Positions 9,488 to 11,203 of a stretch of DNA of 64,000 nucleotides are shown here, piece by piece. The position numbers and the translations under genes were made by a program. The notes under the pieces were generated by a model. That model saw only the letters and a program-made list of their open reading frames with translations. It was not told the origin of the DNA and made no database searches. How positions within the stretch are numbered: the first letter of the stretch is position 1; each line of letters starts with the position of its first letter. Source of the stretch: Conexibacter woesei Iso977N (GTDB lineage: Bacteria > Actinomycetota > Thermoleophilia > Solirubrobacterales > Solirubrobacteraceae); the NCBI RefSeq assembly GCF_000424625.1, contig NZ_AUKG01000002.1, positions 186,001-250,000 of the forward strand. Reading direction: 5' to 3'.

Positions 9488-10069
9488 ATGAGCACGCTGA
9501 CGCCTTCGAGTGACCTCGTCTCCCAGGCCGGCCGCGCCGCGCATGAGCTCGGCCTCGCCGCGCTGCTCGGCGGCAACCTGTTCGGCCGCCTCGCGCTGCA
9601 TCCGTCGGTGGATCGCATCGCGGACCCGAGCGAGCGCGGCGCGGTGGTCAACGCCGCGTGGCGGCGCTACGGGACGATCAACTCCATCGGGTTGATCGCG
9701 ATGACCGCCGGCTGGGCCGGCGCGCGCGCCGAGGAGGCGCGCGGCGCCACGAAGCTCACCGGGCGCGAGCGCGCGCTGGCGCGGGCGAAGGACGTGCTCG
9801 TCGGGACGGTCATCGCGACCGGCGCGCTGACGGCGGTCGAGGGCATCCGCTTCTCCCGTCAGGCGCCGGGCGGCGCGGTGCCGCTGACCGACGGCTCGAC
9901 GCCCGGCCCGGGAACGCCGCCGCGCGCGGCGAGGATGAAGCGCACGCTGAACGTGCTCGGCGCGGTCGCCATCGGGGCTGAGGCGGCGCTGGTGTCGGTC
10001 GACGCCGCGCTGGCGCAGGAGAACTTCCGGTCGTCGCCGCTGCGGCGGCGGCTGCGGCGCTGGGGGTGA
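9488..10069 (+). CDS. uncharacterised small membrane protein
   Basis: A 193-residue protein of unknown function. Hydrophobic stretches occur at about residues 65-80 (INSIGLIAMTAGWAGA), 100-115 (VLVGTVIATGALTAVEGI) and 145-162 (LNVLGAVAIGAEAALV), suggesting three membrane segments. The N-terminal segment (GLAALLGGNLFGRLALHPSV) may be a fourth. The C-terminus is very basic (RRRLRRW). Codon use matches neighbouring genes. The stop codon sits just before the large inverted repeat beginning near 10085. No motif was recognised. Confidence 0.7.
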   Translation: MSTLTPSSDLVSQAGRAAHELGLAALLGGNLFGRLALHPSVDRIADPSERGAVVNAAWRRYGTINSIGLIAMTAGWAGARAEEARGATKLTGRERALARAKDVLVGTVIATGALTAVEGIRFSRQAPGGAVPLTDGSTPGPGTPPRAARMKRTLNVLGAVAIGAEAALVSVDAALAQENFRSSPLRRRLRRWG

Positions 10070-10084
10070 GGCGCTGCGGCGCGG

Positions 10085-10490
10085 GCGTTGGGGGCGCCTC
10101 AGTGCGGGGCGTCGGTGGTGGCGCTCCGTGTTGCGGGGTGGGCATCGAGGGCGAGAAGCGCTTGAGGCGACGCTCCACGGTCGCGGTGTGGCTCGGCCTT
10201 GGCGCCGGGACTGGGGGCGGAGTTCGGGGCCGAACTGATGGGTCAACGGTGCATTTGGGTTCGTATGGGACCCAAATGCACCGTTGACGTCCTGAACGGC
10301 AGTTTGGTGTTCTCTGCGAACACCAAACTGCCGTTGACCATTCCGTTCGGCCCCGAACTCCGCCCGGAAGCACCAGAACGCCCAGCCACACCGCGCCCGG
10401 TGGCGCCGCCCCAGCGCCTTCTCGCCATCGATGCCCACCCCGCAACGCAACGCGCCCCCACCGACGCGCCGCACTGAGACACCCCAGCGC
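10085..10490. repeat. large composite inverted repeat with two long perfect hairpins at its centre
   Basis: Two inverted arms of about 160 bases (10085-10249 and 10332-10490) are clearly similar when one is reverse-complemented. They include a perfect 21-base block (10215-10235 against 10345-10365) and a long conserved block around 10130-10165 against 10410-10445. Each arm ends in its own hairpin: 10242-10288 (stem of 19 perfect base pairs beginning GTCAACGGTGCATTTGGGT, 9-base loop) and 10295-10335 (18 perfect pairs beginning AACGGCAGTTTGGTGTTC, 5-base loop). The two hairpin stems differ in sequence yet both pair perfectly. No transposase is present. It could be a non-autonomous mobile element or a dispersed structured repeat. 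Confidence 0.8.
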
Positions 10491-10587
10491 CGGCAGAGAG
10501 ACGCCACAGCCACCCGGCCCACCCCGAAGCCCCGTAGGGCTTGAGCCCGCCGCCGACCTCCGCTACCGTTCACACCCTCGTGCGGCA

Positions 10588-10682
10588 CCTCCTTCGAGTA
10601 GCGATCACCAGCGCCCCTTAGCGGCTCGCGGAAGCGAGTCCGGCGACTGGTCGTTCTCGCTCCTACTCGAACTTCACGGAGG
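10588..10682 (+). promoter_or_regulatory. folded 5' leader able to mask a ribosome-binding site
   Basis: The 5' region of the next gene can form one long interrupted hairpin. CCTCC (10588-10592) pairs with the Shine-Dalgarno GGAGG (10678-10682), TTCGAGT with ACTCGAA (10665-10671), AGCGA with TCGCT (10657-10661), and ACCAGCGCC (10607-10615) with GGCG-A-CTGGT (10642-10651). The top is GGCTCGC-GGAA-GCGAGTC (10623-10640) with a GNRA-type tetraloop. The GGAGG is eight bases before the ATG at 10691. No known riboswitch class was recognised. Confidence 0.55.
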
Positions 10683-10690
10683 TACCCCTG

Positions 10691-11203
10691 ATGTCCACGT
10701 TGTCGTACACCGACGAGCTGCGGACCGCGCCGTCCACGTTCCGCCCGTTCCGGCCCGATCCGGTCGACCCGGCGGCGCTGGCCGCCGCGCTGGAGCGCGC
10801 GCACCTCGCGTCGTGGCGGCTGGTGACGGTCACCGATCCGCGCATGCGTGAGGCGATCCGCGATGCGCACCTGCCGTACTGGCGCCGCCAGCTCGCCGAG
10901 ACCGGCGGGATGAAGATCCTCGCGGCAGACGCTCCGGCGCGGCAGGCCCGTGACCTGCGGATCGCCGATGCCTTCGCCAGGTCGCTGCACGAGGCGCCGG
11001 TCCACCTGGTCCTGCTGGGCCGGGTCGGCGGCTCGCCACGCTTCGGCGCGCTGCACGACCTCGCCGAGGGCCTGCGCGCCGAGGGCATGGACTGCGCGCC
11101 CGCGCCGTGCGCCCGCGAGGCGGCGGCGGAGATCGGCGAACTGCTGCAGCTCGAGGACGGGCTGGTCGTCTGCGGCCTCCTCGTGGCCCGGCCGGCGCGC
11201 TGA
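10691..11203 (+). CDS. nitroreductase-like protein (short)
   Basis: 170 residues. The order ASWRLVTVTDPRMREAIRDA then EIGELLQLEDGLVVCGLLVA resembles the core of FMN-dependent nitroreductases, where a helix after a W/F-R-F strand is followed by a GLPDGY-x-V-A-x-L-x-GxP ending. The N-terminal arginine/serine segment that normally grips FMN phosphate is not clear, so cofactor binding is doubtful. Translation starts behind a strong GGAGG that the upstream leader can sequester. It is probably co-transcribed with the aminotransferase gene five bases downstream. The family call is tentative. Confidence 0.6.
   Translation: MSTLSYTDELRTAPSTFRPFRPDPVDPAALAAALERAHLASWRLVTVTDPRMREAIRDAHLPYWRRQLAETGGMKILAADAPARQARDLRIADAFARSLHEAPVHLVLLGRVGGSPRFGALHDLAEGLRAEGMDCAPAPCAREAAAEIGELLQLEDGLVVCGLLVARPAR

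Follow-up and report, generated by a model that had tools for sequence, protein, structure and literature searches.

The 64,000-nucleotide stretch of DNA analysed here (the window) contains a composite palindromic element between two genes that run in the same direction, located about 20 bases past the stop codon of the upstream ORF (9488-10069). The element is made up of the following features:

10085-10490, no strand assigned: composite palindrome; 11 full copies, this one included, were fetched from its own genome (G000)
10091-10173, + strand: outer left arm, 82% complementary to 10403-10485 (repeat search)
10178-10200, + strand: inner left arm, which contains the recurrent GCGGTGTGGCT block and is 87% complementary to 10377-10399 (repeat search); the block served as the arm anchor in arm comparisons among composites
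10215-10235, + strand: left copy of a perfect 21-base block, GGGCGGAGTTCGGGGCCGAAC, terminating in GTTCGGGGCCGAAC (direct sequence reading)
10242-10288, + strand: hairpin T1, 19 perfect pairs and a 9-nt loop, with an ATG at 10265-10267 in the loop
10295-10335, + strand: hairpin T2, 18 perfect pairs and a 5-nt loop, of the family that forms the ends of a nuclease cassette at G000 C1:996344-997310
10345-10365, - strand: right copy (complement) of the perfect 21-base block (direct sequence reading)
10377-10399, - strand: inner right arm (repeat search)
10403-10485, - strand: outer right arm (repeat search)

The original prediction described a composite inverted repeat with a perfect 21-base block and two fully paired centre hairpins of 19 and 18 pairs, and this architecture is confirmed by direct reading and repeat search. 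In an Rfam covariance model search of 9800-10800, no family was matched at E<=1. The prediction also regarded T1 and T2 as a single stem that had diverged in place; they are instead two recurrent hairpin families, each of which is also found singly.

BLASTN of 10085-10490 against the own genome (5.7 Mb, 9 contigs) returned 68 matches at E<=0.001, which were grouped by hand into about 32 places. The palindrome of the window is therefore not a chance structure, and the further copies that the original prediction had proposed to look for are present. Fetched with their flanks as 31 stretches, these places include 11 full two-armed composites of about 400 bp, every one of which carries one T1 and one T2 (11/11); the remaining places hold incomplete composites or single hairpins about 47 bases long. 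The idea that T1 and T2 keep one order with respect to the arms was not borne out: T2-T1 is seen in 5/11 and T1-T2 in 6/11 of the composites, under an orientation that is partly ambiguous.

Two assembly contigs of this genome break within composite hairpins (L020 at the end of C3, and L027 at the start of C2). The loci at the end of C1 (L029) and the start of C4 (L028) have the 3' end of an aldehyde-dehydrogenase-like gene in common up to a T1 hairpin, and diverge beyond it, a difference that would be read as a duplication or rearrangement at the hairpin. At L026 (C1:1509550-1510025), a small gene, monooxygenase-like by its sequence, has a T1 hairpin on one side and a T2-like one on the other and is a possible cargo. 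By eye, several solo T1 hairpins (L023, L031, L037 and L038) seem to adjoin another dispersed repeat, also intergenic, around GGTACACACGCCTCG or GACGCGCCTCGTCGCC.

Among 41 genomes (the own genome and 40 relatives), the element was found only in G000 and in the congener G001, a sister species, with one weak match each in G008 and G034. With the G001 elements as queries, the congener G005 showed four matches, all of them weak, at loci with other hairpins. The 14 composites of G001 keep the arms but differ in the core: T3 (GATCGCGT.AAGTCCGC) is present in 7/14, one of which also has T5, T4 (GTGTCGTCTGGTGTCC) in 5/14 and a T2-like hairpin in 1/14, and one composite has none of these. A pattern describing the T1/T2 base occurs at 21 places in G000 and at 3 in G001 (two of them hairpins); in 99 other genomes of the family it occurs at most five times each, and the insides are mostly unrelated among the matches listed.

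Two places in G001 consist of pairs of like hairpins (T4 with T4, and T3 with T3), each pair set tightly around one gene. In both genes, a DUF559/MTES_1575 nuclease domain follows an AbiEi_4 match, which is below the cut-off in one of them; MTES_1575 is named as a Vsr-type nuclease domain in passages of PMC3710099. A search of the genus with PF04480 gave 25 matches in 7 genomes, including two in G000. One of these (C1:997063) belongs to a gene of 304 aa (C1:996367-997281) that is bracketed by T2 hairpins (C1:996344-996390 and 997270-997310) and whose start reads ...GTATGGAACACCAG = MEHQ, and the other is bracketed by a sixth hairpin type, T6. No nuclease for T1 was seen among the fetched hairpin loci, G000 having the two PF04480 matches just described. 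Nuclease genes with the same hairpins at both ends had been overlooked in the original prediction.

PF04480 was then searched in 101 family and 197 phylum genomes, and the DUF559 family was present in 63/101 and 51/197 of them, respectively, at E<=1e-6, counts that include short DUF559 proteins of other kinds. Using a protein profile built from 24 seed loci, 60 full-length nuclease genes were delimited in 79 loci (L113-L191); 18 ORFs were excluded because they were fragments or short DUF559 proteins or lay at contig edges, and L137 and L143 yielded none. When 140-base windows at the start and the stop were compared (local score >=40), the same sequence was found at both ends of 25/60 nuclease genes, versus 0/3540 mismatched start/stop pairs. 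Such two-ended genes make up 13/21 of those in the genus and 12/39 of those elsewhere, and in four non-genus genes (L171, L183, L184 and L186) the common end stretch is not a strong hairpin. Among neighbour-gene controls, 6/308 were two-ended: two were nuclease genes again (L096, L099), two were RAYT genes (L072, L077) and two were others (L088, L155). It should be noted that L072 and L077 act as a positive control. In a named sample of 80 loci (75 usable), which overlaps the first sample by 8 duplicate genes, 9/75 nuclease genes were two-ended versus 2/5550 mismatched pairs, which shows that two-ended genes are more frequent within this genus than in general. Matching ends are thus absent in 35/60 nuclease genes of the first sample and in 66/75 of the overlapping named sample.

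In 10/25 two-ended nuclease genes, the centre of the 5' hairpin is no more than 6 bases away from a start codon. A hairpin with a score >=33 centred within 5 bases of a possible start codon was present in 30/127 distinct nuclease genes versus 3/308 controls, a comparison in which possible start codons were taken over a wider range for the nuclease genes than for the controls. A start codon in the loop of the 5' hairpin would explain why otherwise different hairpins have a loop sequence in common.

The T2-bracketed protein has an AbiEi-like half fused to an EDxHD/Vsr homing-endonuclease-like domain. The predicted structure of a closely related protein (301 aa; mean pLDDT 91.2, pTM 0.66) matches the fold of the AbiEi antitoxin 6y8q in its first part (E 2.8e-6), and that of the homing endonuclease I-Bth0305I (3r3p) at its end (E 9.1e-4), with a weaker match to Vsr (1cw0; E 0.037). 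A profile of ten cassette nucleases matches 3hrl (1.6e-10) and 3r3p (3.2e-5), and E210, D237, E248, D250, H255 and D264 are invariant in 28 sequences, so that the predicted fold, the profile and the invariant residues all point to the catalytic fold and residues of EDxHD homing endonucleases. The protein thus resembles these enzymes and Vsr in its C-terminal domain, by profile and by fold, with conserved E, D, H and D residues, but differs from them in being encoded by a free-standing gene with hairpin ends, an AbiEi-like N-terminal half and dispersed non-coding copies, and no intron or intein was seen. Likewise, it resembles AbiEi antitoxins of type IV toxin-antitoxin systems in its N-terminal two thirds, by fold and profile, and differs from them in its fusion to a nuclease. 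The 13E12 repeats, a DUF222-HNH family, are also nuclease genes repeated in actinobacterial genomes, but their nuclease is of the HNH type, and the family is not known to have hairpin ends. According to PMC3943268, I-Bth0305I forms a dimer on a target almost 60 bp long; by analogy, a dimer target of this size would suit a palindrome of 40-50 bases.

To relate hairpin types to nucleases across genomes, eight nuclease-end hairpins (three from G006, and one each from G003, G043, G132, G002 and G000) were joined as one query and compared with eight genomes. Among the matches listed, each of the eight hairpin types was found only in the genome that holds its nuclease, and G001 and G005, which lack the nucleases of all eight hairpins, gave 0 matches. 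By hand count among the matches listed, solo places number at least 17 in G043, at least 13 in G132, at least 11, 7 and 4 for the three types of G006, at least 7 in G003, at least 3 in G002 and at least 12 in G000. Outside the eight-genome test, the G132 hairpin is also present in the congeners G308 and G310, which counts against a strict genome specificity of this hairpin. A cognate link between hairpin and nuclease is well supported by these sequence comparisons.

The placement of the hairpins was determined with neighbour genes from a purpose-made codon-based gene caller, of which a retrained version was used for G043, G002 and G006 and the first version for G132. In G000, 12 loci lie between convergent genes, 17 between tandem genes and 0 between divergent genes (n=29, two contig-end loci being left out); for the window copy (L009), an antisense call of 28 codons was skipped in favour of the real downstream gene. 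The first 16 loci of G001 comprise 15 convergent and 1 tandem, and a further 15 comprise 8 convergent, 6 tandem and 1 divergent, the nuclease locus L096 being left out. With the nuclease ends included, the corresponding numbers of convergent, tandem and divergent positions are 6, 8 and 1 in G132 (n=15), 8, 12 and 1 in G006 (n=21) and 0, 4 and 1 in G002 (n=5), and G043 has 7, 6 and 3 together with 2 hairpins inside genes and 1 unassigned (n=19). The hairpins are therefore dispersed mostly at the 3' ends of genes, as REPs are, the pattern being weakest in G043. The intergenic position that the original prediction had proposed to check is accordingly seen in most copies, mostly behind gene ends, and its suggestion of a dispersed, structured, mostly intergenic element of a non-autonomous mobile type gains support from the copies across G000 and from their placement relative to genes.

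With a probability of roughly 0.6, we consider the stretch to be a REP/BIME-like composite that is non-autonomous and belongs to a mobile family based on hairpins; its two centre hairpins would be copies of the terminal hairpins of AbiEi-EDxHD cassettes. Such a cassette would be a single gene, composed of an AbiEi-like DNA-binding half and a Vsr/homing-endonuclease-like half, with the same hairpin at its start and stop and with a start codon that would often lie within the loop of the 5' hairpin. The nuclease would bind its own palindromic hairpin as a dimer and cut at or near such sites, and repair would copy the hairpin, either by itself or together with the gene, to sites downstream of genes; there it would be tolerated and may serve as a terminator. 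The spread of composites would result from recognition, by the resident nuclease, of hairpins in their core (T2 here, and T3 or T4 in G001). T1 would depend either on the T2 nuclease or on a relative that has been lost. The nuclease's role as mover of the hairpins we infer from cognacy alone.

The gene-end placement of the hairpins also fits a terminator role. The hairpins could be selected bidirectional terminators, or stabilisers of mRNA 3' ends, that were multiplied by recombination and merely acquired by the nuclease genes, and both their position behind genes in G000 and G001 and their long, stable stems speak for this. We nevertheless regard this explanation as unlikely, since it leaves unexplained the same hairpin at the start of the nuclease gene, around the start codon, as well as the match between hairpin type and nuclease among the matches listed. 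Moreover, the T1 stems show no compensatory upkeep. The original prediction saw compensatory change in the stems; in a covariation test of T1 (15 copies: 3 composite and 12 solo), one stem pair changed on both sides, a value reached by 450/500 shuffles, and the stem changes were mostly one-sided mismatches in the 5' arm. In G000, the two arms of an element are somewhat more similar to each other than to those of other elements (permutation p 0.0068, 11 elements), and in G001 this is not clearly so (permutation p 0.079, 14 elements); when orientation was ignored, the values were 0.09 and 0.96. Given the lack of compensatory covariation in T1 and the modest own-arm match (p 0.0068 and 0.079), selection for structure is not supported.

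A movement of the element as a REP/BIME by RAYT, a Y1 HUH transposase, with the nuclease genes as passengers, would agree with its general look and placement, which are those of the REPs described in passages of PMC3733652. G000 and G001 have one PF01797 (Y1/RAYT) gene each, and a decayed T-type GTCAACGG hairpin lies behind the one in G001. However, no T hairpin was seen adjoining the RAYT gene of G000, and it is nuclease genes that are bracketed by hairpins. Furthermore, G002, G043 and G132, three of the six tested genomes with cognate hairpins, have no PF01797 match at E<=0.001 in spite of their dispersed hairpins; a Y1/RAYT transposase therefore seems not to be needed, and RAYT as the sole mover was rejected. 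According to PMC8266576, TnpA-REP of E. coli depends crucially on the GTAG motif; in the 8 bases next to each end of the hairpin (52 copies, four types), GTAG occurs in 0/52 and CGTC in 4/52. We therefore find this explanation quite improbable. The hairpin-based family resembles REPs, BIMEs and REPtrons in that short palindromes lie between genes, mostly at 3' ends, in solo or composite form, and in that a single gene is bracketed by the same palindromes; it differs in having an AbiEi-EDxHD nuclease instead of a Y1 HUH transposase, in having no GTAG tag and in its presence in three genomes without a PF01797 match. The element works like a REP/BIME and is outside the RAYT/REPtron class by the two features tested, PF01797 and the tag. 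The TIRYT/TIRtron arrangement described in PMC3733652 likewise has one gene between inverted terminal repeats, some of them self-complementary, but the gene there encodes a tyrosine transposase; two such genes are L072 and L077, which were positive in the control set. Near congener RAYT genes (L071, L076 and L077; G005 and G006), palindromes of the GGGGTCAGACCCC type are present, like those of the TIRtrons in that paper.

PMC7319586 reports that AbiEi antitoxins autoregulate by binding inverted repeats at their own promoter. The 5' hairpin could accordingly be an operator for autoregulation of the AbiEi type, which would fit the two-ended genes whose start codon it covers (10/25), and the dispersed copies could be decoys or regulatory sites spread by some enzyme. 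Yet the solo copies lie mostly behind genes and not before them, and the 3' end of the nuclease gene has the same hairpin, and this origin strikes us as quite unlikely too. A classical MITE, derived from an insertion sequence by deletion and bounded by long terminal inverted repeats, with T1 and T2 as part of its ends, is very improbable: the inverted arms, the size of about 400 bp, the several copies and the two arm kinds distinguishable in 13/14 G001 composites (but only 6/11 in G000) would agree with it, but the cores are swapped between copies while the arms persist, the hairpins also occur solo, and no related insertion sequence was seen within the fetched loci.

With regard to the nuclease-driven movement that we favour, the case against it includes the lack of a clear target duplication, of a clean empty site and of a T1 nuclease among the fetched hairpin loci, together with the nuclease genes whose ends do not match (35/60), the G132 hairpin in G308 and G310, the decayed hairpin behind the RAYT gene of G001 and the gene-end placement that also fits a terminator. 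No target-site duplication, for which the original prediction had proposed a search, stands out at the edges of 73 hairpin copies; direct similarity of the flanks is slightly above expectation (14/73 at a score >=16 versus 7.8 expected, at hairpin edges only). Insertion into pre-existing palindromes was also considered and rejected, the inverted flank score being 12.5 versus 13.1 for mismatched flanks (73 copies); in G043 alone, this score has an uncorrected permutation p of 0.02. In the congeners of G132, no clean empty site was found; the comparison showed hairpins in common, indels of small size and, in one case, a 3.4-kb difference in presence or absence with hairpins at its borders. The latter is a stretch with metabolic genes between two hairpin copies of the L182 type in G132 (C1:885539-889088; L220, L342). 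In G310 (L338), the genes outside this stretch are joined, with one hairpin between them; since G310 is a 210-contig draft, a misassembly is possible there.

More generally, the data may reflect a class of transposase-free mobile DNA in Actinomycetota, in which an AbiEi-EDxHD homing-type nuclease gene bracketed by its own recognition palindromes would seed cognate solo hairpins and composites, with hairpin and nuclease co-diversifying into a lineage-specific hairpin code. We put this view forward tentatively, at somewhat less than even odds. No description of palindromes dispersed with AbiEi-DUF559 genes was found in the titles and abstract openings listed by searches of open-access literature. 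Many bacteria have REP-like palindromes, and PMC3733652 presents the spread of those families that lack a dedicated transposase as an open question. For such families, a nuclease with the dispersed hairpins at the ends of its gene would provide a candidate mover, and hence a testable question, and it would also suggest a role for AbiEi-DUF559 genes. Finally, by eye, a GGGGGGCGAGTTTCCGG-like box is located upstream of nuclease genes at several loci, and also upstream of the RAYT genes of G000 and G001 (L073, L074).
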